Shown: positions 36,927 to 57,136 of the stretch, in pieces | Numbering within the stretch: position 1 is the stretch's first letter | Layout: each line of letters starts with the position of its first letter | From: Paracoccus sp. MBLB3053 | GTDB taxonomy: Bacteria; Pseudomonadota; Alphaproteobacteria; Rhodobacterales; Rhodobacteraceae | Length of the DNA: 64,000 nucleotides | Reading direction: 5' to 3' | NCBI RefSeq assembly: GCF_031822435.1 | Contig: NZ_JAVQLW010000004.1 | Location: forward strand, 124,001-188,000 | Position numbers and translations under genes: made by a program | The notes under the pieces: generated by a model | What the model saw: the letters and a program-made list of their open reading frames with translations, nothing else | What the model was told of the DNA's origin: nothing | The model's database searches: none

Positions 36927-37074
36927 ATGTTGAATCGCCATTTCCCCTTCGTCAAGCCCACGTTGATCATGAGGACAGAGCTGTGGATCGTAAGGCTTTG
37001 CTGGCTTTTCGAGCGGCTCGACAGAAAAGGTGAGCCGCCGGCAGCCTGCATCAATGAGACAAGGAAACGCGAAG

Positions 37075-37797
37075 ATGAGCGACGTTGACACCAAGGAACT
37101 GGACCGCCTGCTGCAAGAGGCCTTCGACACCGCGACAAAGCTGTACAAAGAGCGCGGCTTCCAGCGCCGCGTCGGCTTTGGCAAACGTCCGGCGCTGGTC
37201 AGCGTCGATCTGGCCAATGCCTGGACCCGGCCCGGAAACCCCTTCACCTGCGATCAGGAGAAGATGGACAATGAGATCATACCGGGGATGCAGAAGCTTC
37301 TGACGGCCTTCCGCGCCGCTGGGCTGCCGGTCATCCATGTCACCACTGCCTATGAGATCACCGACCGCAATGCCGATTTCACCGATATGGGCCTGTGGCA
37401 CAACAAGATCCCGGTCGATGTCGTCGACATCAAGGATACCGAGCTTTGGGCCATCGACAGCCGCATCGCCCCGGTCGAGGGCGAATATACCCTGTTGAAG
37501 AAACGCGCCTCATCCTTCCACGGCACGGAACTGGCGGGCATCCTGCGCGCGAATAACGTGGACACGATCCTTGTGACGGGCGTAACCGCCTGCGCTTGCG
37601 TGCGTCAGACCGTTTGCGACGGCATCGCCGACGGCTTCCGTACCATCGCGGTCAAGGAATGCATCGGCGATCGCGTACCGGGGGCGGTGGCGTGGAACCT
37701 GTTCGATATCGACGCAAAATTCGGTGACGTGCACACCGTCGACGAATGCGTTGCCTATATCGACAGCCTCGCGGCGCAAAAGATCGCGGCCGAATAA
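37075..37797 (+). CDS. N-carbamoylsarcosine amidohydrolase (isochorismatase family)
   Basis: 240 residues from the ATG at 37075. Predicted reaction: N-carbamoylsarcosine to sarcosine, CO2 and ammonia. Catalytic triad candidates are Asp in ALVSVDLANAWT, Lys in LLKKRASSFHGTEL and Cys in VTGVTACACVRQTVCDG. The N-terminal extension and GFGKRPALVSVDLANAWT agree with known carbamoylsarcosine amidases. The following hydantoinase genes and the creatinase downstream support this substrate. First gene of the operon. Confidence 0.87.
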   Translation: MSDVDTKELDRLLQEAFDTATKLYKERGFQRRVGFGKRPALVSVDLANAWTRPGNPFTCDQEKMDNEIIPGMQKLLTAFRAAGLPVIHVTTAYEITDRNADFTDMGLWHNKIPVDVVDIKDTELWAIDSRIAPVEGEYTLLKKRASSFHGTELAGILRANNVDTILVTGVTACACVRQTVCDGIADGFRTIAVKECIGDRVPGAVAWNLFDIDAKFGDVHTVDECVAYIDSLAAQKIAAE

Positions 37798-37885: not shown

Positions 37886-39964
37886 ATGGCCAGAATTGGC
37901 GTCGATGTGGGCGGGACGAATACCGATCTCGTTCTGGAATGCAGCCACGGGGTCTTTTACCACAAGGTGCCGACTACGCTGAAGAACCAGTCCATCGGTG
38001 TGGTCGATGGCGTTCAGGGCATCTGCCGCAAGGCCGGGATCGCGCCGTCCGAGGTTCAGATGATCGTCCACGGCACCACCACCGCGACCAACATCACCAT
38101 CGAGCATAACGGCTCGGAATGCGGGATGATCACCACGCAGGGTTTCCGCGACATCCTGCATATCGGTCGGCACAAGCGGCCCTATAACTTCTCGCTGCAT
38201 TTCGACGTGCCGTGGCAAAGCCAGCCGCTGGTCAAGCGTCGCAACCGCATCGCCGTGCGCGAGCGTATCCTGCCCCCTTCCGGCGAAGTTGCCGAGCCGC
38301 TGGACGAACAAGCGGTGCGCGAGGCCTGCGCGCTGTTTCGCAAGCGGGGTATCAACTCCGTCGTCATCGGCTTCATGTTCGCCTTCCTGAACGACAGCCA
38401 CGAACGCCGCGCCAAGGAGATCGTGCTGGAGGAAATGCCCGACGCCTATGTCACGCTCTCCTCCGAGGTCGCCAATGTCATGCGCGAGTACGAGCGGTTC
38501 TCGACCGCCGCGATGAACTCCTATGTCGGGCCGAAGACGGCCTATTATCTGCGCGACCTCGACGCCCGCCTGCGCGAGGCGGGGGTCCTGTCCAAGCTGC
38601 GCATCATGCAGTCGAATGGCGGGGTCTCGACCGTCGATGCCTGCGCGAGAAAGCCGATCCGTATCCTGATGTCCGGCCCGGCCGGGGGTGTGATCGGCGG
38701 GGCCTCGGAGGGGGAAATGGCGGGCACGCCCAATATCATCACCGTCGATATCGGTGGCACCTCTGCCGATGTGTCCACCATCCCGGGCGGAACGGTCAAG
38801 ATCATGAACCCGCGCGATACCTATGTCTCGGGCCATCCGGTGCTGACGCCGATGATCGACCTGATCACCATTGGCGCGGGCGGTGGATCGGTCGCCCATA
38901 TCGACGCGGCGGGGGCGTTCCATGTCGGCCCACGCTCGGCCGGGTCGGAGCCCGGTCCCGCCTGCTATGGCCGGGGCGGGACCGAACCCACGGTGACCGA
39001 TGCCCAGATCGTCCTTGGCAGACTCGACCCCGACATGGCGCTGGGGGGTGACCTGAAACTTGACCCGGCTTTGTCCTTCGCGGCGGTCGAGACGATGATC
39101 GCAGAGCCCCTGGGTATGACCGTGATCGAAGCGGCGCTGGGGATTATCAGGATCGTCAACAACAACATGGCGCTGGCGATCCGGTCGAACTCGGTCGCGC
39201 GCGGCATCGACCCGCGCGAATTCTCAATCATGCCCTTCGGCGGCGCGGGTCCCCTGCATGGGGTGGCGCTGGCCGAGGCGATCTCGGCCCGGGACGTGAT
39301 CGTGCCTGTTGCCCCCGGCATCACCGCCGCTGTCGGCCTGCTGAAGACCGACCTGCAATATGAACATACCGAGGCGGTGATCGTGGAACTGACCAAGGCT
39401 GGTGTCGCGGAAATTGACCGCATCAATATGGCACTCGAAAGCCTGCGCGCCGCAGTCCGGGCGGAACTGGACGGGGACGGTATCCCACGCGAGCAGCAGC
39501 AGATCACTGTGCTGGCCGAATGCCGCTATCACGGTCAGGGCTTCGAGCTTCGCGCAACCATGCCAGATGGTCCGGTAACAGAGGCGAACCGCGCCACCAT
39601 CCTCGACAGCTTCCATGACCAGCACCAGCAGGATTACGGCTACAGCTATCGTCAGGCCGAGGTGGAATTGATTACCTTGCGCGCCATCGGCTCGGCCTCG
39701 GTCCCAAGGATCGTGATCCCGAAGATCGCACCGACGGACGGTTCATCCATCGACCAGGCGCTGATGTTCGTGCGCCCCACCACCTTCGATGACGGTCGCA
39801 CGCTCGAAACGCCGCGTTATGACCGGGACAAGCTGCTTGCAGGCGACCATGTGCCGGGTCCCGCGATCCTGCATCAGCACAATGCGACCACATTGGTCCC
39901 GCCGGGCTATGTCGCCGAAACGCTGGACCACGGCAATACCCGCATCCGCGCCATTAGCGCCTGA
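37886..39964 (+). CDS. hyuA: N-methylhydantoinase (ATP-dependent) A subunit, HyuA/oxoprolinase family
   Basis: 692 residues. Hydantoinase/oxoprolinase A subunit: N-terminal ATPase-like motif RIGVDVGGTNTDLVL (residues 3-17), VHGTTTATNITIEHNG, the second phosphate motif ITVDIGGTSADVS (~286-298), GAGGGSVAHID and MPFGGAGPLHGVALAE. In the creatinine route the AB enzyme hydrolyses N-methylhydantoin to N-carbamoylsarcosine at the cost of ATP. GGAGA lies 7-11 nt before the ATG. hyuB follows after 12 nt. Other hydantoins or 5-oxoproline are alternative substrates, but the neighbours favour N-methylhydantoin. Confidence 0.9.
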   Translation: MARIGVDVGGTNTDLVLECSHGVFYHKVPTTLKNQSIGVVDGVQGICRKAGIAPSEVQMIVHGTTTATNITIEHNGSECGMITTQGFRDILHIGRHKRPYNFSLHFDVPWQSQPLVKRRNRIAVRERILPPSGEVAEPLDEQAVREACALFRKRGINSVVIGFMFAFLNDSHERRAKEIVLEEMPDAYVTLSSEVANVMREYERFSTAAMNSYVGPKTAYYLRDLDARLREAGVLSKLRIMQSNGGVSTVDACARKPIRILMSGPAGGVIGGASEGEMAGTPNIITVDIGGTSADVSTIPGGTVKIMNPRDTYVSGHPVLTPMIDLITIGAGGGSVAHIDAAGAFHVGPRSAGSEPGPACYGRGGTEPTVTDAQIVLGRLDPDMALGGDLKLDPALSFAAVETMIAEPLGMTVIEAALGIIRIVNNNMALAIRSNSVARGIDPREFSIMPFGGAGPLHGVALAEAISARDVIVPVAPGITAAVGLLKTDLQYEHTEAVIVELTKAGVAEIDRINMALESLRAAVRAELDGDGIPREQQQITVLAECRYHGQGFELRATMPDGPVTEANRATILDSFHDQHQQDYGYSYRQAEVELITLRAIGSASVPRIVIPKIAPTDGSSIDQALMFVRPTTFDDGRTLETPRYDRDKLLAGDHVPGPAILHQHNATTLVPPGYVAETLDHGNTRIRAISA

Positions 39965-39976
39965 GAGGACATAACG

Positions 39977-41761
39977 ATGAACCAGATGTCCAAGATGAAA
40001 CCCACTGTAGATCCGATCACCCTGCAAGTCATCCGTGGCAGCTTCGAGACAATCGCAGAGGAAATGGGCCATGTGCTTTACCGCATGTCGTTTTCCTCGA
40101 TCATCCGCGAAAGTCAGGATCTGGGCGCGGGGCTGTTCGACCTCGATTTCAACACGCTTTGCGAGTCGGAATCGACACCCATGCATATCGGCTCGATCCC
40201 CGGCTATCTGCGCGGCATTGCCGAAACGCTGGAGGATGGCGAGTGGTATGAGGGCGATGTAGTCGTTCACAACCACCCCTATCACGGTGCCAGCCACACG
40301 CCCGACCTCGCGATCGTGGTGCCGGTCTTTTACCGCGACCGTCTGGTCGGCTTTGCCGGAAATACCGCCCACCACGTCGATATCGGCGCGGCAACGCCCG
40401 GCCTGATCATCGACGTTCCCGATGTCTATGCCGAGGGGATGCTGTTTGCGGGCACCAAGCTTTACCGCAAGGGCGAGCCGAACAATGCGATGTGGAACTA
40501 TATCCGCCGCAATTCGCGTGCCGCACAGCAGCTTGTCTCGGATATCGAGGCGCAGATCGCTTCGGCCCGGCTGGGCGCGCGGCGCTTTGCCGAGTTGCTG
40601 GAAAAATACGGCGAGGAGACGGTCTTCGCCGCCGCCAATCAACTGATGGACTATGCCGAGCGAATGACCCGCCAGCGCATCAGCGAGATTCCGGATGGCG
40701 ATTATACCGCCGAGGGTTGGCTGGACGATGATGGCCGCAACCGTGACCAGCGCCTGAAGATCAAGGTGACGATCCGCGTGCGCGGCGACGAGGTCGAGGT
40801 CGACCTGACCGGCTCGGCCGACCAGACGCCCACCGCTTATAATGTGCCCTTCGAGGGCTCGACCAAGGTTGCGGCCTATGCGGGTTTTCGCAAGCTGCTG
40901 CTGGACGCCGCGACATCGGACACGCGGGCTCCCTCGAATGAGGGATCGTTCCGTCCGATCACAGTGACGGCGCCGCTGGGTTCGATCTTCAATCCGCGCC
41001 CGCCTGCCTCGGCCGAGGCGCGTTTTACCCAATGCAACCGCATGATCGACCTGATCATCCGCGCCCTGGCCCCGGTCATGCCCGAAAAGGTGATCGCGGG
41101 TTCCTCGGCTTCAATCAGCTTCGCGGCCTATTCCGGGTTACGGCCCTCCGGCGATTACTGGGTGTTTCTTGAGGTGAACGAGGGTGCCTATGGCGGGCGG
41201 CCACGCTCGGACGGGCCGGACAGTATCGACAACCTGATGGCCAATACCCGCAACAACCCGCTGGAAGATCTGGCGATGCATATCCCGATGATCTGCGACC
41301 GCTATGAGCTACGCGACGACGCCATGCCCGGTGCGGGCGAGTACCGGGGCGGTATCGGGGTGGTCAAGGCGCAACGGGTGCTGACGCCCGCCTTCATCAC
41401 CCACGAATCCGAACGCCACAGCGAATCGCCATGGGGCATCTTTGGCGGGACGGATGGAACCGTCGGGCGCTGCACGATCAGCAATCCGAACCGGCCGGGA
41501 GAGGAACTCGAGATGTATTCGAAGTTCTCGGGCCTCGCGGTCGGGCCGAATGATGTGATGACCTATTACAGTCCGAATGGTGGTGGTTACGGTGATCCGC
41601 TAAACCGCCCCGCAACGAAGGTGCTGGAGGATGTGCTGGACGGCTATTGTTCGGTCGGGCATGCGCGTGAGGTCTATGGCGTGGTGATTGACGCCGAGAC
41701 CGAGACTGTCGATCTGGCCGCAACCGAGCGGCTACGGCTGGCAATGCGGAAACATTCCTAA
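39977..41761 (+). CDS. hyuB: N-methylhydantoinase B subunit, HyuB/oxoprolinase family
   Basis: 594 residues. The family pattern is visible: DPITLQVIRGSFETIAEEMGHVLYRMSFSSIIRESQDLGAGLFD at the start, HNHPYHGASHTPDLAIVVPVF, GRHVDIGAATPG-like NTAHHVDIGAATPG, and the C-terminal GGIGVVKAQRVLTPAF and SPNGGGYGDPLNRP. It pairs with HyuA to form the ATP-dependent amidohydrolase; this subunit is thought to carry the hydrolysis of the phosphorylated intermediate. Same operon, 12 nt after hyuA. Confidence 0.9.
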   Translation: MNQMSKMKPTVDPITLQVIRGSFETIAEEMGHVLYRMSFSSIIRESQDLGAGLFDLDFNTLCESESTPMHIGSIPGYLRGIAETLEDGEWYEGDVVVHNHPYHGASHTPDLAIVVPVFYRDRLVGFAGNTAHHVDIGAATPGLIIDVPDVYAEGMLFAGTKLYRKGEPNNAMWNYIRRNSRAAQQLVSDIEAQIASARLGARRFAELLEKYGEETVFAAANQLMDYAERMTRQRISEIPDGDYTAEGWLDDDGRNRDQRLKIKVTIRVRGDEVEVDLTGSADQTPTAYNVPFEGSTKVAAYAGFRKLLLDAATSDTRAPSNEGSFRPITVTAPLGSIFNPRPPASAEARFTQCNRMIDLIIRALAPVMPEKVIAGSSASISFAAYSGLRPSGDYWVFLEVNEGAYGGRPRSDGPDSIDNLMANTRNNPLEDLAMHIPMICDRYELRDDAMPGAGEYRGGIGVVKAQRVLTPAFITHESERHSESPWGIFGGTDGTVGRCTISNPNRPGEELEMYSKFSGLAVGPNDVMTYYSPNGGGYGDPLNRPATKVLEDVLDGYCSVGHAREVYGVVIDAETETVDLAATERLRLAMRKHS

Positions 41762-41767
41762 TATTGG

Positions 41768-41789
41768 GGGGCCGCGTCACAGCGGCCCC
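41768..41789 (+). promoter_or_regulatory. intercistronic hairpin after hyuB
   Basis: GGGGCCGC (41768-41775) and GCGGCCCC (41782-41789) form a perfect 8-bp stem with loop GTCACA, 6 nt after the hyuB stop and about 80 nt before the permease start. Confidence 0.55.
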
Positions 41790-41870
41790 TGCCATCTCGG
41801 CAAGAAGACCGCGCGCGAGCCGCAAGGCCGCGTGCCGGTTTCGTTCAGTCAAACGACAGGGAATTTCAAC

Positions 41871-43373
41871 ATGACCACAACCGAAGACGCTGCGGCGGCT
41901 TGTCACCAGCGCACCGGCCTGATCGAGGAGAGCATCCTGCCCACAAGAGCAGCCGAGCGTCCGATCGGCGCGCTTGGCTATGCCTGGATCTGGGTCGGTA
42001 TCGCCGTCATTATTGCCACCTATTCGCTTGGCGCGACCGGGGTTCAGGGCGGCTTCAGCCTGACCGCCACCGTGCTGACGATCATGCTGGCGAACCTTGC
42101 CATCGGAACGCTGATGTTGCTGACCGCCGATATCGGCACCGAGCACGGCCTCTCCTTTGCGGTCTATCTGCGCGCGCCCTTCGGCCTCCGTGGCACGCAT
42201 CTGCCCGCCGTGTCGCGTGGCGTGGTCGCGGCCATGTGGTTCGGCATCCAGACCTATCTGGGGGCTTTGGCGCTGAACGGGATCGGCGAGTATTTCCTCG
42301 GCTTCTCGAATTGGTTCCTGTGGTATGCGCTGTTTGCCGTACTTCAGGTCGGCAATACCATGCTGGGCATCCGATCGGTCGAACGGCTGGCGGCACTGGC
42401 CGCGCCCGCGATCATCGCGATTTCGGTCTGGATGTATTTCACGCTGGACGGCATCGCCCAAACCAAGGGTATGAACATCTGGACCTTCCAAGCTGAGGGT
42501 CAGGCCTCGCTGCTGGTGTTGTTCATCGCGAATATGAGCTTCTGGTCCACGATGGCGATCGACATTCCGAACCTGACCCGCTTTGTCCGCACCACGACCG
42601 GAACGCGCAGCTATTTCGCGCGCAACCGCGCCATCTTTGTCGCCCAGCTTCTCGCCCTGCCGCTGACACAGGCAATGATCGCGGGGATCGGGGCGGTTTC
42701 TTTTATCGCGACCGGCAACTGGAACCCGATCGAGGTTATTCAGGGTGACGCGCAGGGCATTGCGCTGCTTGTCCTGCTGCTGCTGATCGTCATGGCGCAA
42801 TGGTCCACCAACAACTCGGCGAACCTGATCCCGGCGGCGCTGACCTTCGTGAACCTCGCGCCGCGCCTGATCTCGTATCGCAGCGGCGTCGCGCTGGCGG
42901 GCATCGTCGGCACGCTTTGCTTTCCGTGGCTGATCCTCGACAACCTGTTTGCCTTCCTTGGCTATTACGGCGCCTTCCTCTCGGCGATCGGCGGCATCAT
43001 GGTGGCGGATTACTATGTGATCCGGCGTCGCCGCGTGAACGTGCCGGCTTTGTTCGACCCCGAGGGGCAGTATCGCTATGCCGGAGGCTTCAACCCCGCA
43101 GGTCTGCTCGCTTGGCTCGCGGCCGGAGGGATCGCGGCTTGGTGGTCGGCCTATGCCTTTGTGATCGGCTTCCCGCTGGGGCTCGTCCTCTACCTCGCGC
43201 TGACGCGGATGCTGGTCCTGTCGCGATACCCGCAGGCCGAGCTGGCTGGGCGGAATGACGAGCACTATCTGGCGGCCTCGGTCGGCTTGGACTGGGTGTA
43301 TGTCGGGCAGGGCCGTTTCGCCCGCGTCCCCGTCGAGACCCCGATTGCGGGCGGGCCGCGCGAAGACCTCTAG
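41871..43373 (+). CDS. NCS1-family nucleobase/hydantoin-type permease
   Basis: 500 residues, about twelve membrane helices. NCS1 (CodB/Mhp1/PucI) features are RPIGALGYAWIWVGIAVIIATYSLGATGVQGGFS at the start, ARAPFGLRG-like YLRAPFGLRGTHLPAVSRGVVAAMWFGIQTYLG, and NIPNLTRF (IDIPNLTRFVR). The C-terminus is soluble and unusually long (~60 residues). Substrate predicted to be N-methylhydantoin, creatinine or a related ring compound because it closes the hydantoinase operon. The stop TAG coincides with the IS5-type target duplication. Confidence 0.87.
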   Translation: MTTTEDAAAACHQRTGLIEESILPTRAAERPIGALGYAWIWVGIAVIIATYSLGATGVQGGFSLTATVLTIMLANLAIGTLMLLTADIGTEHGLSFAVYLRAPFGLRGTHLPAVSRGVVAAMWFGIQTYLGALALNGIGEYFLGFSNWFLWYALFAVLQVGNTMLGIRSVERLAALAAPAIIAISVWMYFTLDGIAQTKGMNIWTFQAEGQASLLVLFIANMSFWSTMAIDIPNLTRFVRTTTGTRSYFARNRAIFVAQLLALPLTQAMIAGIGAVSFIATGNWNPIEVIQGDAQGIALLVLLLLIVMAQWSTNNSANLIPAALTFVNLAPRLISYRSGVALAGIVGTLCFPWLILDNLFAFLGYYGAFLSAIGGIMVADYYVIRRRRVNVPALFDPEGQYRYAGGFNPAGLLAWLAAGGIAAWWSAYAFVIGFPLGLVLYLALTRMLVLSRYPQAELAGRNDEHYLAASVGLDWVYVGQGRFARVPVETPIAGGPREDL

Positions 43374-44734
43374 CAGGCCGCTGAATTAGTCGGGGCGTGA
43401 GAACGTCCTTCCTGGCTCGGTGGGGATGCTGGCTGCGTGGTCGCTTTTCCCGTCGCCACATACCTGCCCAGAGCAGCTCCTCCTTTATGCCGCCAGCAAA
43501 CGAGGCAATCGGGCGAGATTTCCAGCAGCCAAGGTCAGAATGAAGCGGGATCTCACGCGCTCGACGCCTCGATAGACAGTCTGGGCCATGCCACCAACGG
43601 TCTTGGCCCAGCCGAAAGGCTCCTCGATCCGCTTCCGAAGCTTGATCGACAGCGCGTAGCCCTTGTGTCGCGTGGTGCGTCCGTCGATCGCCGAATGCCG
43701 AGATTTTTGGGCGACGTGAGGCGTAACGCAGGCCTGACGTAGATCGGCCACGAAGCCCGCGACATCATAGGCCTTGTCGGTGCCCAGCGTCAGCTTCCGG
43801 GTCGAACCGGGAGAGTGACGATGCAGCATGTCGAGCGCGGCCTTGCGTTCGGCATGGCCATCGGCCTGGGTCAGGTCGCCCTGAACGATCAGCCCGTTCC
43901 GGTTCTCCATCAAGGCATGACCCATGAAGCAAAGCACGGCGCCAGGGCCGGCGGATTTCTTGTAGAGCCGTGCCTCCGCGTCGCTTGTCGAGGCGTGGGT
44001 CTTGTTCGAGCGCTTCTCGCCCTTGAAGTCGACCTCCGCATTACGGTTTCTGTGGTTGGGTTGGGGCATCGGGGTCGTCTCGGGCTTGGTCTCGGCGGTT
44101 TGCATATCGGGGGCGTTATCCTGGGCGGGGGGACCCCCGGGACCCTCATCCTCGGGCGGCGTGCTTTCCGCCTTCGGCTTGAAGCTCTTCATCGACGCCC
44201 AGGCCTTGATCAGCGTACCATCGACCGAAAAATGATCATCCGACAAGAGCGGCGCGACCTCGCGATGGGCCAGGATCGCCGACATCACCTTGCGCGACAT
44301 CTCGGTCGTCAGCAGCCGGTCGCGGTTCTTGGTGAAAACCGTCGGCACCCAAACGGGATCATCGATGCCAAGGCCGACAAACCAGCGGAATAGCAGGTTA
44401 TACTGCATCTGTTCCATCAACTGCCGCTTGGATCGGACCGAGAACAGGATCTGGAGCAGGCTGGCCCGGATCAACCGCTCCGGCGCGATCGAAGGGCGAC
44501 CGAAATCGACATAGAGATGATCGAAATCCCCATCAAGGCTGGCCAGCGCGTCGGTCACGACCTGCCGGATCTTCCGCAGAGGATGCCGCGCGGGGATGCA
44601 CTCCTCAAGGTCGACATAACTGAACAGCGACCCGCTCTTCTCGTCCGTTCCCCGCATGATCACCCCCGACAAAGTCCTGTCGGCGATGAATCACGTTCTG
44701 CAATCCGCGTCGAGGGCCGACTATTTCTAGGCTG
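43374..44734 (-). mobile_element. IS5/IS1182-like insertion sequence
   Basis: 1361 bp between two CTAG tetranucleotides (43370-43373 and 44735-44738), the likely target duplication. The ends are related inverted repeats: CAGGCCGCTGAATTAGTCGG at the left and, read on the other strand, CAGCCTAGAAATAGTCGG at the right. One transposase gene fills it. It separates two convergent catabolic operons and sits exactly at the permease stop codon. Confidence 0.82.
43485..44672 (-). CDS. IS5-type DDE transposase
   Basis: 395 residues. N-terminal DUF772-like region: YVDLEECIPARHPLRKIRQVV, PSIAPERLIRASLLQILFSVRSKRQLMEQMQYNLLFRWFVGL. The DDE core is FSVDGTLIKAWAS (Asp), TLGTDKAYDV (Asp) and KRIEEPFGWAKTVGGM (Glu). 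A Pro/Glu-rich insert follows the first Asp. The frame is intact and spans nearly the whole element. Confidence 0.92.
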   Translation of the reverse strand: MSGVIMRGTDEKSGSLFSYVDLEECIPARHPLRKIRQVVTDALASLDGDFDHLYVDFGRPSIAPERLIRASLLQILFSVRSKRQLMEQMQYNLLFRWFVGLGIDDPVWVPTVFTKNRDRLLTTEMSRKVMSAILAHREVAPLLSDDHFSVDGTLIKAWASMKSFKPKAESTPPEDEGPGGPPAQDNAPDMQTAETKPETTPMPQPNHRNRNAEVDFKGEKRSNKTHASTSDAEARLYKKSAGPGAVLCFMGHALMENRNGLIVQGDLTQADGHAERKAALDMLHRHSPGSTRKLTLGTDKAYDVAGFVADLRQACVTPHVAQKSRHSAIDGRTTRHKGYALSIKLRKRIEEPFGWAKTVGGMAQTVYRGVERVRSRFILTLAAGNLARLPRLLAA

Positions 44735-44795: not shown

Positions 44796-45800
44796 TTATT
44801 CGCCCCAGACCTCGGCCAGCAGATTGACCCAGTTCTCGCCCATGATCTTCTCGATGCGGCTTTCCGACCAGCCGCGCCGCAACATGGTCGCCGTCAGCGC
44901 CGAACTATGTCCGATCGTGTCGATACCGGCAGGATTCTGGATGGTGCCGAAATCGGTCAGGCGACGCGCATAACCCTTGTCGTGCGTGATCCAGTCGAAG
45001 AACGGCTTCTCATGGCCTTGGGTGAAATCGGTCCCATATCCGACCCGATCCTCGCCGCAGAGGTTGATGACATATTCCATCGCCTCGACATAATCGTCGA
45101 CCGTCGCTTCGGTCCCACGGGCAAGGAAAGGGGTGAACATGGTGACGCCGACGAAACCGCCGTGATTAATGATGAAACGCAGTTCCTCATCGGTCTTGTT
45201 GCGCGGATGCGCCTTGAGGCCCGCAGGCAGGCAATGCGAGTAGGCCACCGGCTGGCGAGAGGCGAGGATGACATCGCGGCTGCTGTTGCCCCCGACATGG
45301 GACAGATCGCAAAGGATGCCCAGCCGGTTCATCTCGGCCACCACCTCGCGGCCGAAGTCCGAAAGGCCACCGTCGCGCCCCTCATAGCAGCCGGTCGCGA
45401 CGAGGTTCTGGGTATTGTAGGCCATCTGGATAATGCCGACGCCGAGTTCCTTGAACAGCGACAGATAGCCGATCTGATCCTCCATCCCCGAGACGTTCTG
45501 CCAGCCAAGGATGATGCCGGTTTTTCCCTCGGCCTTGGCGCGGCCGATGTCGGCGGTGGTCTTGACCTGCATGATCAGGTCGGGATGATCGCGGAACCAT
45601 GCTTTCCACTGCATGATGTTCTGCATGGTGGCGGTGAAACCTTCCCAGATGCAGCAGGTGCAATTGGCGGCGGTGATGCCACCCTTCTGCATGTCGCGAA
45701 AGATATCGGGGCCGAAATCGGACACGATCAGCCCGTCAATCACGGTCAGTCGGGCATGCAGGGACTGGGCCTCGGAAAGAGGCGCTTTCTGGTTCATCAT
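44796..45800 (-). CDS. peptidase M19 (membrane dipeptidase)-family protein with altered metal site
   Basis: 334 residues, no signal peptide or membrane anchor. The C-terminal half keeps M19 motifs: DLSHVGGNSS, PVAYSHCLPAGLKAHPRNKTDEEL and GYGTDFTQG. The N-terminal HxD zinc motif (IDGHNDLP in typical dipeptidases) is replaced by IDGLIVSDFG, and the bridging-Glu region reads LGWQNVSGMED. I recall the same pattern in the M19 protein of Pseudomonas glycine-betaine/sarcosine gene clusters. It is the last gene of a PotABCD-like operon and close to creatinase, so a methylglycine-type substrate is an inference. A true dipeptidase role is doubtful. Confidence 0.82.
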   Translation of the reverse strand: MMNQKAPLSEAQSLHARLTVIDGLIVSDFGPDIFRDMQKGGITAANCTCCIWEGFTATMQNIMQWKAWFRDHPDLIMQVKTTADIGRAKAEGKTGIILGWQNVSGMEDQIGYLSLFKELGVGIIQMAYNTQNLVATGCYEGRDGGLSDFGREVVAEMNRLGILCDLSHVGGNSSRDVILASRQPVAYSHCLPAGLKAHPRNKTDEELRFIINHGGFVGVTMFTPFLARGTEATVDDYVEAMEYVINLCGEDRVGYGTDFTQGHEKPFFDWITHDKGYARRLTDFGTIQNPAGIDTIGHSSALTATMLRRGWSESRIEKIMGENWVNLLAEVWGE

Positions 45801-45818: not shown

Positions 45819-46889
45819 TCAGTTCTCGCTGACGATCGCGCCTGCCGAAGGCGCCCAGTGCAGCCAGACCCGCGCGCCGACCGGCAGCACATTGGGACCG
45901 CCTAGTCCGGGTGCCGTTGCGCGGGCGGTCAGCATCGGGCCTGCCTCGGTCTGGACCTGATATTCGACCGCCGCGCCGTGATAGGTCATGACCTCGACCC
46001 GACCGGGCAGGATGTTGGCCACCCCCTCTGGTGCCTCAGCAGCGATGCCCACGACCTCGGGACGCAACGCAAGGAAGGACTTGCCCATCTGCGCCTCTTG
46101 CCTGCCGAGGCGAAGGACCGGCCCCGCTTCCATCCGAAAGCCGTCCTGCGTCGCGGTCATACGTCCGGGCAGCAGGTTAGGGATGCCGAGGAAGCCTGCG
46201 GCAAAGGCCGAGCGCGGACGACCATAAACCTCGTCCGGCGGGCCGACCTGCTCGACCTTGCCGTTATACATCAGAACCATCCGGTCGGCGGTGCTCATCG
46301 CCTCGTCCTGATCGTGGGTGACGAAAACCGTGGTCAGGCCGAGGGATTGCTGAAGCTGGCGGATCTCGATCTTCATCTCGTGGCGCAGCGCGGCGTCAAG
46401 GTTCGAGAGCGGCTCGTCAAGCAGCAGCACATCAGGTTCGATCACCAGCGCACGGGCCAGCGCCACACGCTGTTGCTGGCCGCCCGACATCTGGCGCGGC
46501 AGGCGATCGGCCAGATGACCCAGCCGCACCCGCGCCAGCGCCTCGCGCACCTTGCGTTCAGTGTCGGCCTTGTTGAGACCGCGCATCTCAAGACCGAAGG
46601 CCACGTTCTGCGCTGCCGTCATATGTGGAAACAGGGCATAATTCTGGAACACGAAGCCCATATTGCGACGGTTCGGCGGCAGATGGGTCACGTCGCGCCC
46701 GCCGACCGTGATCTGGCCGCTGGTCGCGTCGACAAATCCGCCGATCATGCGCAGGGTCGTGGTCTTGCCACAGCCCGAGGGCCCCAGCAACGCGACCAGT
46801 TCGCCGTCGCCGATGCGCAGGCTCATGTTCTCGACCGCGACCGAATTGCCGTAATGCTTGGCGACATCCTGAAGAACGACTTCGGGCAT
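45819..46889 (-). CDS. PotA-like ABC transporter ATP-binding protein
   Basis: 356 residues. Walker [10 protein letters not shown], signature MSGGQQQR, Walker [15 protein letters not shown]-loop [11 protein letters not shown], followed by a TOBE-type C-terminal domain ([12 protein letters not shown]..., [16 protein letters not shown]). This is the spermidine/putrescine/Fe3+-type importer ATPase. It lies between the second permease and the M19-family gene. Confidence 0.93.
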
Positions 46890-46900: not shown

Positions 46901-47716
46901 TCAGAAAGCGCGACTGAGTTTGGCGTAACGGTCGGAGATCAGCAGAAGCAGGGTGATCAGGCCGATCTGGACCGTCGCCACCGCGCCGATGGTCGAGTCG
47001 AAGTTCCATTCGAGATAGTTGATCAGCGCGATCTGCAGTGTCGTGCTGTCGGGCCCGACCAGAAAGATCGACTTCTCAAGGTCGATGAACGAATTGACGA
47101 AGGCGAAAAGCGATCCCGCAATCACGCCCGAGCGGATCACCGGCAGCGTCACGCGGAAGAACACGGTCAGCGGGCCAGCGCCAAGGCTACGCGCGGCTTC
47201 CTCGACAGAGGGAGGCACACTGATCAGTGACGTCGTGACCAGCCGGATCATCCAAGGCAGCGCGATCAGGCTATGGGCGATGATCAACCCGATACTGGAC
47301 CCGGCGATGCGCCAGCCAGTCAGGAACTCGACCTCGAGAAAAAAGACGAACAGCGCGCTGCCGCCGACGATTCCGGGCACGATCATCGGGGACATCAGAA
47401 TGGTGTTGATCGTCTCCCGGCCCTTGAACCGTCCGCGGACCAACGCAAAACTGGCCGGCAGACCAAGACCCAATGCCACGCAGGTCGCGATCAAGCTGGT
47501 GCGCAGGCTGAGGAAGAAGCCGTTCCGGAAATCGGACATCTCCCATGCGCGGCGATACCAGTCGAGCGTATAGCCCTCAGGGGGAAAAGACAGGATCTTG
47601 TTCGAGAAGAAACTCATCCAGACGATAAAGACCAACGGCAATACGATGAAGCCGATGACGAGGATGCTGGTCCCGGTATAGGCCAAGCGAACGGATTTTT
47701 CCTGATTACTCATCAT
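46901..47716 (-). CDS. PotC-like ABC transporter permease
   Basis: 271 residues, six membrane spans. The start ATG at 47716 or 47713 overlaps the stop of the upstream permease gene (GAATGATGAG). EAA loop: PPSVEEAARSLGAGPLTVFFRVTLPVIRSGVIAGSLFAF. Pairs with the PotB-like permease at 47713-48624. Confidence 0.9.
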   Translation of the reverse strand: MMSNQEKSVRLAYTGTSILVIGFIVLPLVFIVWMSFFSNKILSFPPEGYTLDWYRRAWEMSDFRNGFFLSLRTSLIATCVALGLGLPASFALVRGRFKGRETINTILMSPMIVPGIVGGSALFVFFLEVEFLTGWRIAGSSIGLIIAHSLIALPWMIRLVTTSLISVPPSVEEAARSLGAGPLTVFFRVTLPVIRSGVIAGSLFAFVNSFIDLEKSIFLVGPDSTTLQIALINYLEWNFDSTIGAVATVQIGLITLLLLISDRYAKLSRAF

Positions 47717-48624
47717 TCGCTCCATTTCCGGTATTTGCGCTGGACCAGCACCGATACGCCGACGGTCAGGATCAGGGTCACGGCCATCAGGATGAAGGCC
47801 AGCGCCGCACCGAAGGGCCAGTTCATCACCTTGGCGATCTGCTGGTAGACGGTCGGTGCCATCATGTGAAATGTCGGGCCGCCAATCAGTACCGGCGTCG
47901 CATAGGCGTTCATCGACAGGATGAAGCACAGGACCGAGCCGGAGAGGATGCCGGGCAATGCCAGCGGCAGCACGATCCGGCGCATGATGGTCAGGTGACT
48001 GGCTCCAAGGCTCTCGCCCGCGTCCTCAAGATTGCGGTCGATCGATTCAAAGACGCTGTTGAGTGTGATGATCATGAAGGGCAACAGGACCGAGATCAGC
48101 CCGATCACCACCCCTGCCGAGGAATACATCAGCCCCAGCTGCCCCTTGTGGCCGAACAGGCCCAGAAACGCGGCCAGAACCCCCTTGTCGTTCAGGATCA
48201 GCATCCAGGCCGAGGTGCGCACGGCATTGCCGATCAGCAGCGGGACAAGGATCACGATCATCAGCATTCGCTTGGCCAGATCGCCGACATGACGGGCAAG
48301 GAAATAGGCGACGGGCACGCCCGCCGCGAGGCAGATTGCCGTCGACAGGCCCGAGATCCAGACCGTGCGCCACAGCACGCCCTGATAGAAGCTATCGCTG
48401 AAGAATTTGAGGTAGTTCTCAGCCGTGACCGCGCTCATCATCAGCTCGGTCGGGTCGTAATGGTTCAGGCTGTTGCGCAGCATTAGCGCCAGCGGGGCAA
48501 GAAGCCCGATTGCCACGAAGATGATTGCGGGCGTGGCCAGCATTGGTGTTCCCGGCCGTCGCGGTGCTCCTTTCGGGGCTCCATTTGGCGGTCGGGAGAC
48601 TGAGAAGGTTTCGGTCGTGCTCAT
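47713..48624 (-). CDS. PotB-like ABC transporter permease
   Basis: 303 residues with six membrane spans after a Pro-rich cytosolic start. EAA loop DRNLEDAGESLGASHLTIMRRIVLPLALPGI. Translationally coupled to the next permease. Inner-membrane component of the importer encoded by 44.8-49.7 kb. Confidence 0.9.
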   Translation of the reverse strand: MSTTETFSVSRPPNGAPKGAPRRPGTPMLATPAIIFVAIGLLAPLALMLRNSLNHYDPTELMMSAVTAENYLKFFSDSFYQGVLWRTVWISGLSTAICLAAGVPVAYFLARHVGDLAKRMLMIVILVPLLIGNAVRTSAWMLILNDKGVLAAFLGLFGHKGQLGLMYSSAGVVIGLISVLLPFMIITLNSVFESIDRNLEDAGESLGASHLTIMRRIVLPLALPGILSGSVLCFILSMNAYATPVLIGGPTFHMMAPTVYQQIAKVMNWPFGAALAFILMAVTLILTVGVSVLVQRKYRKWSE

Positions 48625-48651: not shown

Positions 48652-49716
48652 TCAGCCAGCAAAGGACTTGTTCCACCATTCGAGCCATGTGGCAGTGTTC
48701 TCGGCCACATAGGCATAATCGAGAAAGCGCATCTTGCTGCGCTGCTCCGGGGTGAAATCGACCAATGCCCGGGTTTCGTCCGAGATTGAGGCCTTGGGAT
48801 TTGCCGGGGCATAAAGGCTTGCTTCCGCCAGTCCCGCCATTGCGGTCGGGTCCAACATCGCATCCAGATAGCTATAGCCCGCATCGCGATTTGGACCGAA
48901 CTCGGTCAGGCATGCGCCGAAGGTGACAGCGATTGCCCCTTCATCGGGATACTGGATGCCCAGAGACAAGCCGTCCTTGGCCCATTGCAGGCCGCGCGCC
49001 TTGTAGTTGATGGCAATGTCGACCTCGCCATTCGCCAGTCCCGCCTGCAATTGCTGGTGGGCTGCGTAGAGTTTGGGCTGGCTGTCACTGACAAGCTTTT
49101 CGAGCAAAGGCTTACCGTCTTCGACGCTGGTCATGTCACCCTTGGCGACAAGTCCCGCCATCATCATGTAATTGAAATACAGCTGGTTGGTCAGCCCGAT
49201 GCGTCCGGCCCATTTCGGGTCCCACAACTCGGCATAGGATTTGGGCGGTTCGCTGACCTTATCCTTGTTATAGATGATGACCACGCCGCTATAGAGCCAT
49301 GGCACGAAATAGGGTGCCTTCAGTTCTTCAACCACATCGGCGTAATTCGGGATCTTCGTCAGGTCGAGATCCGCGATGACCCCTTGCTGCTTCAACTCGA
49401 AGGCGTCCGAGCTGTTGACATGGATCAGGTCGGAGGATGCGCGACGGATGCGCTTCTCGCTCAGCAGCTTGGCCTTGCGCTCGGGCTCCATTCCCAGATC
49501 GCGGACGACGTTGAAGCCTTTGTCCTCAAGCAGCGGCTTCTCGACGAAGCGGACGGTTCGATCGTTCCAATCGCCGCCCCAGTTCGAGACGACGACAGTG
49601 TTCTGTGACGCATGAGACAGACGCGGCATCAGGGTCGGAAGCGCCGTTCCCGCCAGTGCCAGGGCGAGCATCCGGCGGCGCGTCGGGCCCGAGGATAGCG
49701 GAGATCCATTATTCAT
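48652..49716 (-). CDS. PotD-like periplasmic substrate-binding protein, Tat-type signal
   Basis: 354 residues from the ATG at 49716. The N-terminus GPTRRRMLALALAGTALPTLMPRLSHA has a twin-Arg motif and resembles a Tat signal. The mature domain is of the PotD/SBP_bac type (NTVVVSNWGGDWNDRTV..., PYFVPWLYSGVVIIYNKDKV, SYAELWDPKWAGRIG). First gene of the importer operon, divergent from a LysR regulator. The ligand may be a guanidino or methylated amino compound given the creatinase nearby, but polyamines cannot be excluded. Confidence 0.88.
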   Translation of the reverse strand: MNNGSPLSSGPTRRRMLALALAGTALPTLMPRLSHASQNTVVVSNWGGDWNDRTVRFVEKPLLEDKGFNVVRDLGMEPERKAKLLSEKRIRRASSDLIHVNSSDAFELKQQGVIADLDLTKIPNYADVVEELKAPYFVPWLYSGVVIIYNKDKVSEPPKSYAELWDPKWAGRIGLTNQLYFNYMMMAGLVAKGDMTSVEDGKPLLEKLVSDSQPKLYAAHQQLQAGLANGEVDIAINYKARGLQWAKDGLSLGIQYPDEGAIAVTFGACLTEFGPNRDAGYSYLDAMLDPTAMAGLAEASLYAPANPKASISDETRALVDFTPEQRSKMRFLDYAYVAENTATWLEWWNKSFAG

Positions 49717-49815
49717 GGTGAAATCTTCCCTGTTTTCTTTGATTTCCTGTGGCTCCGGTGGCCCGAAACCATTCGAAGGCCCCAAAACGATGAGACCGTA
49801 TTCATCGTTTGTACA

Positions 49816-49839
49816 ATATTAATTTTTACTATATTAATT
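49816..49839. promoter_or_regulatory. direct repeat in LysR/binding-protein intergenic region
   Basis: ATATTAATT occurs at 49816-49824 and again at 49831-49839, 15 bp apart, in the 152-bp region between divergent starts at 49716 and 49869. Candidate regulator or promoter elements; the region is markedly AT-rich. Confidence 0.35.
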
Positions 49840-49868
49840 CCAAACAGCTATTAATCTTGGGCGGAAAA

Positions 49869-50786
49869 ATGGGCTTGGAATTACGCCATCTGCGCGTTTT
49901 CGCAGCACTGGGAAAAGAGTTGCATTTCGGTCGAGCGGCCGACGCGCTACATCTCGCCCAACCCGCGCTTTCGAAAATTGTGCAACAGCTGGAAGCCGAA
50001 ATCGGTACGCCGCTTCTGCTAAGGACCACTCGTCGGGTCGAACTGACCGAGGCCGGAAAGGCGTTTCTAGACGAGACCTCGACCATAGAGGCGCAAATTG
50101 AACAAGCGGTGGCTAGTGCGCGGAATGCCGCTCGCGGCATCCGAGGCGAGTTGAGAATCGCCTATACCGATTTCGCCATTAATGGTCGTCTCCCGCATTT
50201 CTTGCGTGACTTCGCCGCTGCCCACCCCCAGATTCGTTTGAATTTGATCTTCATGCCAACGACCAGCCAGCACATGGCGCTATTACAGCAGACGATCGAT
50301 GTGGGGTTCATGATCGGAGAGTTCCGCCACAAGACCACAAGTTGTATTACATTTGACGAGGACGAATATGTTGCACTGCTTCCTGCCTCCCATCCGCTAT
50401 GCAGGGAGACATCTCTGACGCTGGAGCAACTGGCGGATGAAAATTTTGTGCTGGGTACCGGCGAAAACTGGGCAGCATTTCGCACGAGATTGTTCGCCGA
50501 ATGTCGCAGTCGTGGCTTTTTTCCCAACATCGTCCTTGAGGCATCCAACAGCGAAGGTATTTTTGGACTTGTTGTTGCCGGGGTCGGCGTAACGATCTAT
50601 TCGAGCTGTGTTGGAAACCTTCCACGTCAGGGAGTCGAGGTCCGTCCCTTGCGAAATGTCAGCAGTAAGCTACCTGTTACTGCAGTCTGGGGGCGTAACC
50701 ACAAATCACAGGTTCTAGATCGCTTCATAAACCTCCTTCGGCGATCTGCTTTGAATGAAACTAAGCAAAATACAGCCAACGGATAG
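49869..50786 (+). CDS. LysR-type transcriptional regulator of the PotABCD-like operon (predicted)
   Basis: 305 residues. The HTH reads LELRHLRVFAALGKELHFGRAADALHLAQPALSKIVQQLEAEIGTPLLLRTTRRVELTEAG. The effector domain (IRGELRIAYTDFAINGRLPHFL) is CbnR/BenM-like. The ATG at 49869 follows GGGCGG; upstream in-frame codons lack family character. Divergent from the importer operon, so it probably regulates uptake. Confidence 0.88.
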   Translation: MGLELRHLRVFAALGKELHFGRAADALHLAQPALSKIVQQLEAEIGTPLLLRTTRRVELTEAGKAFLDETSTIEAQIEQAVASARNAARGIRGELRIAYTDFAINGRLPHFLRDFAAAHPQIRLNLIFMPTTSQHMALLQQTIDVGFMIGEFRHKTTSCITFDEDEYVALLPASHPLCRETSLTLEQLADENFVLGTGENWAAFRTRLFAECRSRGFFPNIVLEASNSEGIFGLVVAGVGVTIYSSCVGNLPRQGVEVRPLRNVSSKLPVTAVWGRNHKSQVLDRFINLLRRSALNETKQNTANG

Positions 50787-50888: not shown

Positions 50889-51965
50889 TTAACTCAGACT
50901 GAGCCATGCGCTGAAGCGCTCCGCCAGTTCTGCCTCGTGATCGACCCAGAACTCGTAGGATGATCCAAGCGCATTTGTCATGTTGTCGGGGTTCGTGGGC
51001 ATATGCGAGGCCATCTCGGTCTTGCCGTCCTGATAGAGGCCGACGAGCCCGGCCGAGGATTTGCGAGCGGGTCCGTAGCTGATCCATTTCGCCTGATCCG
51101 CCAGCCGTTGCGTGTCGGTGGCGAATTTGATGAATTCCAGTGCATGTTCCTGCTTCCCGGCACCCTTCGGGATGACGAACAGGTTGTATTCATAGACCTG
51201 TCCATCCCAGACGATCTCGAAGGGCTTGCCCTCTGCGACGGCAGCGCCGAAGATCCGACCATTATAGGCCATGGTCATCGCGACCTCGCCATCGGCCAGA
51301 AGCTGCGGCGGCTGCGCGCCTGCTTCCCACCAGACGATGTCTTTCTTGATGCTGTCGAGTTTGGCAAAGGCGCGGTCGATGCCTTCCGGAGTTTCGAGCA
51401 CGGTGTAGACTTGATCCGCCGGTACCCCGTCGCCCATCAAGGCCATTTCCAGAACAGCTTTGGGGACCTTCTTGATCCCGCGCCTGCCGGGGAATTTCTG
51501 GGTGTCGAAGAAATCGGCAATGGTGTGTGGCTTAGCGTCAAGGAACTTCGTCTTGTCATAGGCAAAGATCGTCGAGAACACGATCGAACCGACCGCGCAA
51601 TCGCTGAGACCCTGAGGCAGGAAATCCTCGCTCGCCGGGGTCCCGTCGGGTGCATGCGGTAGGATCGCGGGATTGATCGGCTCCAGCAGGCCTTCGTCGC
51701 ACAAGCGGATCGCGTCGGCATATTCGACATCGGCGACATTGGTGGTGACATTGCCCGCCTCGACCTGCGCCTTGATGGGGATCGCCGGGTTGTCACTGTC
51801 GAGCGCGACCACCTTGATACCTGTTCGGACAGTAAAGGGCTTGTGATAGGCCTCGACTTGGCTTTGCCCGTAGGTGCCGCCCCAAGACATGACCGTGATT
51901 TCGTCTGCGGCGGCGGTCGCGGCAAGCAGCGTCATTGCGGTGGTAATGGCGATCTCCTTCATCAT
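50889..51965 (-). CDS. orphan PotD-like substrate-binding protein next to creatinase
   Basis: 358 residues from tandem ATGs at 51965/51962 preceded by GGAG. Signal peptide MMKEIAITTAMTLLAATAAAD. SBP fold: EITVMSWGGTYGQSQVEAYHKPF, VADVEYADAIRLCDEGLLEPIN and LLADGEVAMTMAYNGRIF. It lies downstream of creatinase on the same strand, with no ATPase or permease of its own. It could deliver creatine to the PotABC-like channel encoded 2 kb away, as an alternative receptor. Ligand inferred from position only. Confidence 0.87.
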   Translation of the reverse strand: MMKEIAITTAMTLLAATAAADEITVMSWGGTYGQSQVEAYHKPFTVRTGIKVVALDSDNPAIPIKAQVEAGNVTTNVADVEYADAIRLCDEGLLEPINPAILPHAPDGTPASEDFLPQGLSDCAVGSIVFSTIFAYDKTKFLDAKPHTIADFFDTQKFPGRRGIKKVPKAVLEMALMGDGVPADQVYTVLETPEGIDRAFAKLDSIKKDIVWWEAGAQPPQLLADGEVAMTMAYNGRIFGAAVAEGKPFEIVWDGQVYEYNLFVIPKGAGKQEHALEFIKFATDTQRLADQAKWISYGPARKSSAGLVGLYQDGKTEMASHMPTNPDNMTNALGSSYEFWVDHEAELAERFSAWLSLS

Positions 51966-52070
51966 TGCTCTCCTGTTGGATATTGTTTTCCAAGTCTCCA
52001 GCACCTGCTGTGATCTGAGCTTGGGGTTTGGCAGCCTGCTCTTGCGTCGAGACATCAGGTGGCGCGATGG

Positions 52071-52090
52071 GCGGCCGTCAAAGCGGCCGC
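52071..52090 (-). promoter_or_regulatory. intercistronic hairpin between creatinase and binding-protein genes
   Basis: GCGGCCG (52071-52077) and CGGCCGC (52084-52090) form a perfect 7-bp stem with loop TCAAAG, 15 nt after the creatinase stop. Confidence 0.5.
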
Positions 52091-52104
52091 GCATGGATGC
52101 GGAT

Positions 52105-53334
52105 TCAGGCGGCCTTGGCCGCGCCCTTCACGATCAAATGCTCGGGACCATAGGGGAAGCCGGTGATATTGCGGTTTCCGGCCTCCTCGATCACGAGAAT
52201 ATCGTGCTCGCGATAGCCACCGGCGCCGGGCTGGCCTTCGGGGATGGTGATCATCGGCTCCATCGAGACGACCATGCCGGGCTCCAGTACGGTGTCGCAG
52301 TCCTCGCGCAGCTCCAGCCCGGCTTCACGGCCGTAATAGTGCGACAACACGCCGAAACTGTGGCCATAGCCGAAGCTGCGATATTGCAGCAGGTTCTGTG
52401 CCGCATACATCTCGTTCAGTTCGGCCGCGATCTCCGAGCATTTCGCACCCGGTACCAGCAATTCCTTGCCGCGGTCATGCACCCTGCAGTTAAATTCCCA
52501 AAGGCGGAGATGTTCGTCGCTAGCGTGCTCGGCAAAGAGCGTACGCTCCAACGCGACGTAATAGCCTGCGACCATCGGGAAACAGTTCAGCGACAGGATA
52601 TCACCCGCCTCGATCCGCCGCGAGGTGACAGGGTTATGCGCGCCATCGGTGTTGATCCCTGACTGGAACCAGGTCCAGGTGTCCAGCAACTCGGCATCCG
52701 GCCAAGTTCCAGCGATCTCGCGAACCATGGTCGCGGTCGAATGCAGCGCAACTTCATGCTCGGGTACGCCGACGGCCAATGCCGCGACGCAAGCGGCACC
52801 GCCGACATCGGCGATCCGGGCCATTTCGTTGATATGGGCGATCTCCTCGGCCGACTTGATCATGCGCAGGCGCATGGCCGCAGCAGCGATATCCACGAAC
52901 TCGACGCCCGGAAACTCGGATTTCAGCAGTGCCAGCAGGTCGATGTTGACGTGGTCGAATTCGATGCCGATCCGGCTTGCGCTGCCGATGATCTGGCGGA
53001 TGGCGTGAAAGTAATTATCCTTCTGCCAGTCGGTATAGGTCAGGTTGTTGCCAAAGGTACGCCGCCAGGGCTGGCCACCATCAATCCCGGCGCTGATCGA
53101 GGTCGCATGGTCCTGATCGACAAGAAAACCGTAACGCCGCCCGAACTGGCAGAACATGAAATCGGCGTAATAGTTGATGTTGTGGTAGGACGTGAACAGC
53201 GCGGCATCGATATCGCTGGCGGCCATGTGCTTGCGGATCTCAACCAGCCTGCGCTGCATCTCGGAGGCCGAGAATGTGCCTTTGGCCTTCTCTCCGTTCC
53301 CGACAAAGCTCTGAAGTCTCTCACGTTCGGCCAT
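52105..53334 (-). CDS. creatinase (creatine amidinohydrolase)
   Basis: 409 residues, close to the ~403 of Pseudomonas creatinase. It hydrolyses creatine to sarcosine and urea in the cytosol. Segments match closely: FTSYHNINYYADFMFCQFGR, SAGIDGGQPWRR, NLTYTDWQKDNYFHAI, RMRMIKSAEE-type LRMIKSAEEIAHI, TWTWFQSGINTDGAHNPVT (with the catalytic His in GAHNP), LSLNCFPMVAGYY, FGYGHSFGVLSHYYGREAGLELRED and VSMEPM. This goes beyond the generic Xaa-Pro peptidase fold and supports creatinase itself. GGAGGG lies 5-10 nt before the ATG. Divergent from a LysR gene. Confidence 0.94.
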   Translation of the reverse strand: MAERERLQSFVGNGEKAKGTFSASEMQRRLVEIRKHMAASDIDAALFTSYHNINYYADFMFCQFGRRYGFLVDQDHATSISAGIDGGQPWRRTFGNNLTYTDWQKDNYFHAIRQIIGSASRIGIEFDHVNIDLLALLKSEFPGVEFVDIAAAAMRLRMIKSAEEIAHINEMARIADVGGAACVAALAVGVPEHEVALHSTATMVREIAGTWPDAELLDTWTWFQSGINTDGAHNPVTSRRIEAGDILSLNCFPMVAGYYVALERTLFAEHASDEHLRLWEFNCRVHDRGKELLVPGAKCSEIAAELNEMYAAQNLLQYRSFGYGHSFGVLSHYYGREAGLELREDCDTVLEPGMVVSMEPMITIPEGQPGAGGYREHDILVIEEAGNRNITGFPYGPEHLIVKGAAKAA

Positions 53335-55909: not shown

Positions 55910-57136
55910 TCATCGACGTTCCTCGTTTGTGGCGCCTGCACCGCGTTCCGGCCCCCGTTTTCGCCAGCCTTGGGTCATCCGCCGATAGCTGCTCTCGGCC
56001 TGGTCTGCGACAGCCCTATCTGCGCGTCTATGCTCTGGCAGGTTGTACGCGTAAGTGGCACCGCGCTGGCCTCGCCGTGCGGGAAGACCGGCTGCGAGTT
56101 CCAATGACCGCATTTTTCGAGTCATCAGCGCTGGCCGCACCCAAATGTAGTCCTCGCCTTTCGTCAGCATGTGCCAGATCAGGACGGTCAATTTCCGGGC
56201 CACAGCCACGGCCGCAATGTGGTTGCCACGGCGGGCGCAGATACGTTCATAGAATGCCCGCAAGGGACCCGGCACGCGAATGGCTTGCCATGCCGCTTCG
56301 ACCAGAAGGTGACGGGCCCCTGATCTCCCGCGCTTGGTTATCCGGCCGTGATATGCCGGCCCGTCGCCAGACTGCCGAACACTCGGGTTCAGTCCAAAAT
56401 AGGAGATCAGCTTGTCGGGATTGTCAAAGCGGTCGATCCGGCCAATGGCTGCCATTACGCCAACCGCCACAACCATATCGACGCCGGGTGCAGTCATCAT
56501 CCTTTTGACCTGCGCATCCTCTAGGGCAGCGCGCGCAATGTCCCTCTCGACGCCTTTCAGCGCCTCGGTCAATCGGTCATATTCGTCGATGTGACGCGCG
56601 ATGGCGTCGCGTTCGTCGTCCGGCAGATACTGCGCCTTGAGCCAGGCTCGACCCTTGATGCCGAAAATATCCACATGTGGGCAGCGCGGGACGAGATGCG
56701 CGTGCAGGACTGATTGCACGATCCCTTTCAGACGGACCCGGTGCTTGACGATCTGGGTCCGACGGGTGACCTGGCGTCGACGCGCCAGGGTCGCCTCATC
56801 CGGAACCCATACCTCCGGCAGGAAACCAGCGGCATAGAGCTGTGCCAATACGCGGGCATCGATTTTGTCGGTCTTTGTTTTCGCCTTGGCTATCAGATGG
56901 ACCTGCAGCGGATTGGCAACGGCCACGCGCGCGACATGTGGCGTCAGGATTTCGACCACCGCCGTGGCATTCCCTGTCGCCTCGACAATCACGTGATCGG
57001 TCTTCTTCAACGTCGCCGCAAAAGCAGCCAGATGCTCACGTGTCATCCCGATCCGCCCCAGGTTCGTGACCGTCGCACCCTCCAGTGCAACAGCTTCTGC
57101 AACGACGCGATGGATGTCTAAGCCAATGATTCTCAT
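55910..57136 (-). CDS. IS110-family DEDD transposase
   Basis: 408 residues from the ATG at 57136 (GGAGG 8 nt upstream). N-terminal RuvC-like DEDD domain: IIGLDIHRVVAEAV (Asp), VIVEATGNATAVV (Glu) and KTDKIDARVLAQL (Asp, Asp). The C-terminal Transposase_20 domain is APGVDMVVAVGVMAAIGRIDRFDNPDKLISYFGLNPSVRQSG followed by GRITKRGRSGARHLLVEAAW. Frame intact. The ~40-residue tail (QGWRKRGPERGAGATNEERR) is longer than usual. Confidence 0.92.
   Translation of the reverse strand: MRIIGLDIHRVVAEAVALEGATVTNLGRIGMTREHLAAFAATLKKTDHVIVEATGNATAVVEILTPHVARVAVANPLQVHLIAKAKTKTDKIDARVLAQLYAAGFLPEVWVPDEATLARRRQVTRRTQIVKHRVRLKGIVQSVLHAHLVPRCPHVDIFGIKGRAWLKAQYLPDDERDAIARHIDEYDRLTEALKGVERDIARAALEDAQVKRMMTAPGVDMVVAVGVMAAIGRIDRFDNPDKLISYFGLNPSVRQSGDGPAYHGRITKRGRSGARHLLVEAAWQAIRVPGPLRAFYERICARRGNHIAAVAVARKLTVLIWHMLTKGEDYIWVRPALMTRKMRSLELAAGLPARRGQRGATYAYNLPEHRRADRAVADQAESSYRRMTQGWRKRGPERGAGATNEERR

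Follow-up and report, generated by a model that had tools for sequence, protein, structure and literature searches.

Among described members of peptidase family M19, renal dipeptidase (PDB 1itq) and Sco3058 (3id7) carry an HxD motif, Glu125 and His152, and GliJ (5lwz; mutants 5lx7, 5lx4 and 5lx1), which differs from the protein considered here, is named a Cys-Gly dipeptidase by its entry titles. A further solved protein, the Pseudomonas aeruginosa 'amidohydrolase' 2i5g, has been public since 2006 with no stated function, and we take it to be PA5396 of the dgc operon. The present analysis concerns an M19 gene (44796-45800, minus strand) in a stretch of 64,000 nucleotides from Paracoccus sp. MBLB3053 (NZ_JAVQLW010000004.1, positions 124,001 to 188,000), hereafter called the window. 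Its product has L-x-V, Gln and Tyr at the positions equivalent to HxD, Glu125 and His152, the same substitutions as in 2i5g, whose source organism belongs to a different class. M19 proteins in which HxD is lost, the bridging Glu is replaced by Gln and the substrate-binding His by Tyr are referred to as QY M19.

A dipeptidase gene has been noted beside dgc genes before. The pair preceding dgcAB in Vibrio natriegens is named 'pepD' and 'hp' (PMC12093977), a dipeptidase gene is listed with the dgc genes of Pseudomonas (PMC8079746, PMC10963909), in P. putida KT2440 as PP_0308 (table of PMC10963909), a presumed homologue by virtue of its position, and the portions of these three papers that were available give no function for the dgc-linked dipeptidase or for hp. 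As far as these portions go, with 2i5g, the statement in an earlier sequence-only reading of the window that the same variant occurs in Pseudomonas is supported, a dipeptidase gene lying in or beside the dgc operon of Pseudomonas and Vibrio. No functional study of a QY M19 was found in the open-licence literature, beyond which older Pseudomonas deletion work may exist. 'Undescribed', as that reading put it, applies to function in this literature and not to the protein type, of which 2i5g is already a solved member: the fold and relatives are known, and no description of the altered site or of its genomic linkage was found in the open-licence literature searched.

Half of the M19 metal site is lost

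The open reading frame encodes 334 residues with the motifs quoted in the sequence-only reading. The product belongs to M19 by fold, an M19 barrel, and by sequence family (Pfam PF01244 Peptidase_M19, 278.5 bits, above the cut-off), and no NCBIfam family was matched. At the canonical DGHND site it reads D22-G23-L24-I25-V26, so that L24-x-V26 stands in place of HxD at the end of β1, as that reading had claimed. An intact HxD was looked for elsewhere in the chain, and the sole H-x-[DHE] was H72-P-D, which relatives do not conserve. The bridging Glu after β3, said to be not obvious, is indeed gone, but its place is not merely inconspicuous, as it is occupied by Gln101 (GWQN versus canonical GAEG). 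After β4, the equivalent of His152 is Tyr128 (MAYN versus LTHN). The His after β5, the His on β6 and the Asp at β8 are all kept (H168 in DLSH, H189 in YSH, D258 in GTD), in agreement with the earlier claim, and so is R200 (HPRN). Half of the metal site is thus lost and the other half, with the Arg, retained. The HxD of canonical M19s was taken from printed motifs, their N-termini being misaligned in the residue table.

In the AF2 model (pLDDT 93.4; numbering one below that of the protein) the catalytic-site positions lie at or just past the C-terminal ends of barrel strands: L23 and V25 within strand 20-26, Q100 after 93-99, Y127 after 120-124, H167 after 162-164, H188 in 185-189, and D257 between 252-254 and 258-260. 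Misalignment was rejected because of these strand positions and because no other conserved HxD exists. Compared with Sco3058, the chain is about 65 residues shorter and has an extra DKG...R loop. The Tyr site varies beyond the QY group too, with two His, two Trp and one Tyr among five Glu-bearing controls. QY M19 proteins are annotated as '(membrane) dipeptidase', a label that is probably wrong for the window protein; two further M19 genes in the same genome each have HxD and Glu.

Conservation was examined in 93 sequences (the window, 80 near loci and 12 plasmid loci). The Gln, Tyr, His, His, Arg and Asp were common to 91 of them, the other two (L048 and L066) being fragmentary, unreadable extractions, and dN/dS of the window gene against six relatives was 0.09-0.17; together these exclude chance as the source of the substitutions. 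A pseudogene was rejected on the same dN/dS. The His, His, Asp and Arg of the kept half-site are invariant in a 40-sequence alignment, in which the Tyr, Asp, Lys and Arg set is likewise invariant in the near clade. Of 44 M19 proteins picked by hand, 39 have Gln with Tyr, including one from Vibrio fortis and two haloarchaeal copies on one plasmid; of the remainder, a Rahnella protein has Glu with Tyr and four others Glu with His or Trp. The D274-K275-x-x-x-R279 loop is present in the 29 sampled members nearest the window and missing from the other 15. The window protein matches the 2i5g-like (dgc-operon) subfamily in sequence, having both its residue pattern (L, Q, Y, H, H, R, D) and its DKG...R loop. 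A FastTree analysis separated the 36 nearest QY sequences from the remainder with support of 0.993; this does not establish the 39 as strictly monophyletic, because the V. fortis-Rahnella node and the node placing the haloarchaeal pair reached only 0.73 and 0.72.

On the haloarchaeal plasmid (L148:737-7026), a formamidase and a carboxypeptidase M32 are annotated downstream of the second QY copy.

Gene company of the QY M19 proteins

Partners in the 80 near loci were counted by tblastn with preset cut-offs. DUF5943 was found in 57, DgcA in 45, GbcA in 15, N-carbamoylsarcosine amidase (CSHase) and a Pot-type binding protein in 14 each, SoxA in 13, HyuA in 4 and creatinase in a single locus. Of the 80, 63 had one or more of DgcA, GbcA, SoxA, CSHase and creatinase. 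Among 398 sampled Pseudomonadota genomes, whose counts are phylogenetically non-independent, M19 matches at E 1e-60 or better occurred in 34, 30 of them with at least 60% identity, and none of the 26 genomes whose DgcA reached 64% or more lacked the gene. The repeated link to N-methylglycine metabolism suggested by the sequence-only reading is upheld by this survey. Its 'creatine island' describes the window, where creatinase and CSHase are both encoded, and does not extend to the relatives, as the sole near locus with creatinase (L004) carries an M19 about 99% identical to that of the window. Most of the association is with the breakdown of dimethylglycine, betaine and sarcosine, and creatinase is lineage-specific.

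Identity to the window protein is 60-68% for copies linked to dgc genes and 67-99% for those linked to CSHase, on which basis they probably share one reaction. A shared reaction points to something that the two routes have in common and not to a pathway-specific core step.

Three narrower roles were considered. A marker of any DgcA-like demethylase was rejected, as M19 was present in just 2 of the 38 genomes whose DgcA matches were all paralogues (42-52%; p 0.81). A core enzyme of the N-carbamoylsarcosine route was weakened, since CSHase occurs independently of M19 (four of five genomes with CSHase at 70% or more lack it; p 0.33). An N-methylhydantoin hydrolase at the HyuA-poor CSHase loci (10 of 14 without a HyuA match in the flank, one more with a 40% match only) would by itself leave the dgc context unexplained.

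The most frequent partner, DUF5943, is encoded on the same strand as M19 and within 300 nt of it in all 57 loci; it was matched in 30 of the 398 genomes, in 29 together with M19 (p 9e-42). It has the XylR_N-V4R sensor fold of MopR, DmpR and PoxR, by hhalign with eight of ten XylR_N matches (L164 did not pass a motif filter, and L165 was omitted because its match was weak). The Pfam cut-offs are not reached: L085 scored 27.5 bits for V4R (cut-off 31) and 14 for XylR_N (23), L084 scored 13.7 for V4R, and L061 matched neither. A profile search against PDB sequences gave one meaningless match (E 0.8). In contrast to the phenol-sensor domain (5kbi, 6iy8, 5frv), DUF5943 is free-standing, at about 180 residues, and the zinc Cys residues of that domain are partly lost in gamma-proteobacterial copies. 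In genome G350 some 460 kb separate the two genes, with M19 near soxBDA and DUF5943 near dgcA. DUF5943 may serve other amidohydrolase-fold partners, since a PF01979 amidohydrolase takes the place of M19 beside it (locus L138:6306-8115; genome G071, in which no M19 passed 1e-60). One Sox-linked M19 has as its neighbour a protein (L090:10004-10456) without any Pfam match, which was excluded from the DUF5943 counts.

Proposed function and rival explanations

The favoured reading, given about an even chance, is that of a distinct M19-fold subfamily without the alpha-metal site, most likely hydrolysing an N-blocked sarcosine or dimethylglycine derivative and feeding N-methylglycine catabolism. Since the alpha site is lost and beta-site residues are kept (His168, His189 and possibly Gln101, with Arg200 and the β8 Asp258), at most one metal would be bound in the usual place, and Asp258 would act as the base. 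Escherichia coli NagA (N-acetylglucosamine-6-phosphate deacetylase) has a somewhat comparable single-metal site, but keeps a Glu ligand where the window protein has Gln, and its structure (1ymy) matched with a Z of about 17, no higher than other amidohydrolases, indicating no special kinship. The substrate would be small and carboxylate-bearing, with no free alpha-amino group, and could be a side product (cyclic or N-acyl) or a precursor taken up from outside; the enzyme would have a part in making or clearing a sarcosine or dimethylglycine derivative. In most near lineages M19 would work with DUF5943, and in that of the window it appears coupled to a Pot-type importer instead. If so, a widespread subfamily (34 of 398 genomes) is misnamed, the well-studied betaine-to-glycine route holds two unexplained genes that accompany close DgcA in 26 of 26 genomes, and the amidohydrolase superfamily gains a natural site without the hallmark β1 motif and without a bridging acid.

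Several observations weigh against this proposal. Gln seldom serves as a metal ligand, and the site may therefore hold no metal. No counted N-methylglycine gene was found in 17 of the 80 near loci, and 7 of these had no surveyed partner at all (3 on contigs below 4.3 kb). An SBP_bac_5 (Dpp-type) binding protein, which fits peptide-like substrates, lies near M19 in L025 and L041. DUF5943 was unmatched in the genome of the window, in a search where the control genomes were also silent and with a model that matched 30 of the 398 genomes. QY M19s of lower identity adjoin an FAD oxidoreductase and ABC importer, TRAP and ethanolamine ammonia-lyase subunits, aldehyde dehydrogenase with BCCT or DUF3726, or ABC and aminotransferase genes; a strictly N-methylglycine role therefore fails to cover the whole QY subfamily.

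The same binding proteins, the M19 fold and sequence family, and the kept Arg200 and His/His/Asp half-site would also suit a true narrow-range dipeptidase with one metal, with glycyl or sarcosyl dipeptides among its possible substrates and yielding N-methylglycine from peptides. This is considered unlikely, as HxD, the bridging Glu and the substrate His are replaced in 91 of 93 sequences and the established betaine/dimethylglycine and creatine pathways are not known to require a dipeptidase step. That the barrel merely binds a pathway metabolite and forms, with the V4R protein, a sensor or an assembly factor for DgcAB-like flavoenzymes is less probable still: the invariant half-site and the new invariant polar residues (loop Asp, Lys and Arg) fit an active site, and close DgcA is missing from 4 of 30 M19 genomes.

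The invariance of Tyr, Asp, Lys and Arg in the near clade is also what would be expected if Tyr128, Lys275 and Arg279 replaced the second metal in a lyase, isomerase or decarboxylase, and decarboxylases of the superfamily are among the Foldseek matches. Their TM values (0.40-0.43) are at the level of the general barrel, and the loop is missing from 10 of 39 sampled QY sequences, which makes a non-hydrolase improbable. A long shot, drawn from chemistry and gene company, is that the QY M19 and its V4R partner form a clean-up pair for oxidative N-demethylation, M19 being a one-metal lactone/lactam hydrolase that opens five-membered N-methylglycine rings. The iminium from dimethylglycine or sarcosine oxidation can cyclise through its own carboxylate, yielding an oxazolidin-5-one, and the carbamoyl analogue closes to 1-methylhydantoin; such a role would account for the association of a single protein with dimethylglycine demethylase as well as with N-carbamoylsarcosine amidase.

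Surroundings in the window and distant relatives

The M19 gene comes at the end of a series of genes on one strand, in the order binding protein, two permeases, ATPase and M19 (Table 1). The half of the island with M19 and creatinase is flanked by IS5-family (43485-44672) and IS110-family (55913-57301) transposases. Three full-length SoxA homologues (40-47%) are encoded away from this locus, so the genome is probably able to use sarcosine.

Table 1. Coordinates of features in the window.
Feature	Position	Strand	Basis
N-carbamoylsarcosine amidase (CSHase)	37030..37797	+	PDB 1nba 251 bits
HyuA/caprolactamase-alpha-like subunit, under curated cut-off	37886..39964	+
HyuB/caprolactamase-beta-like subunit, under curated cut-off	39977..41761	+
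NCS1-type permease, under curated cut-off	41688..43373	+
QY-type M19 protein, 334 aa	44796..45800	-	ORF and Pfam PF01244
Asp274-Lys275-x-x-x-Arg279 loop, specific to 29 sampled members nearest the window	44964..44981	-	44-sequence sample
Asp258, kept β8 Asp	45027..45029	-	alignment
Arg200, kept	45201..45203	-	alignment
His189, kept putative beta-site ligand	45234..45236	-	alignment
His168, kept putative beta-site ligand	45297..45299	-	alignment
Tyr128 replacing substrate-binding His	45417..45419	-	alignment
Gln101 replacing bridging Glu	45498..45500	-	alignment
Codons 24-26 (L-I-V) replacing HxD	45723..45731	-	alignment
Pot-type ABC transporter ATPase, 18 nt upstream of M19	45819..46889	-
ABC permease (ORF coordinates; the gene probably starts further in)	46901..47929	-
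ABC permease	47713..48624	-
Periplasmic binding protein	48652..49785	-
LysR regulator, divergent	49809..50786	+
Second binding protein, beside creatinase	50889..52094	-
Creatinase	52105..53334	-	PDB 1chm 611 bits

Elsewhere, L026:10001-15127 shows a row of M19, an enzyme of the Amidohydro_3 family, a CobW-type GTPase that may be a metal chaperone, and an oxidoreductase resembling SoxB. A distant QY M19 module (L132:3669-10318; also L142, L143, L144, L145 and L152) includes an orphan family of about 570-580 residues, two copies of which (L132 and L142) matched no Pfam or NCBIfam family. Where tested or annotated, the module also contains a DUF3726/Ldh-like protein; it is accompanied by aldehyde dehydrogenase, BCCT or ABC transport genes, and once it adjoins a DMSP demethylase.
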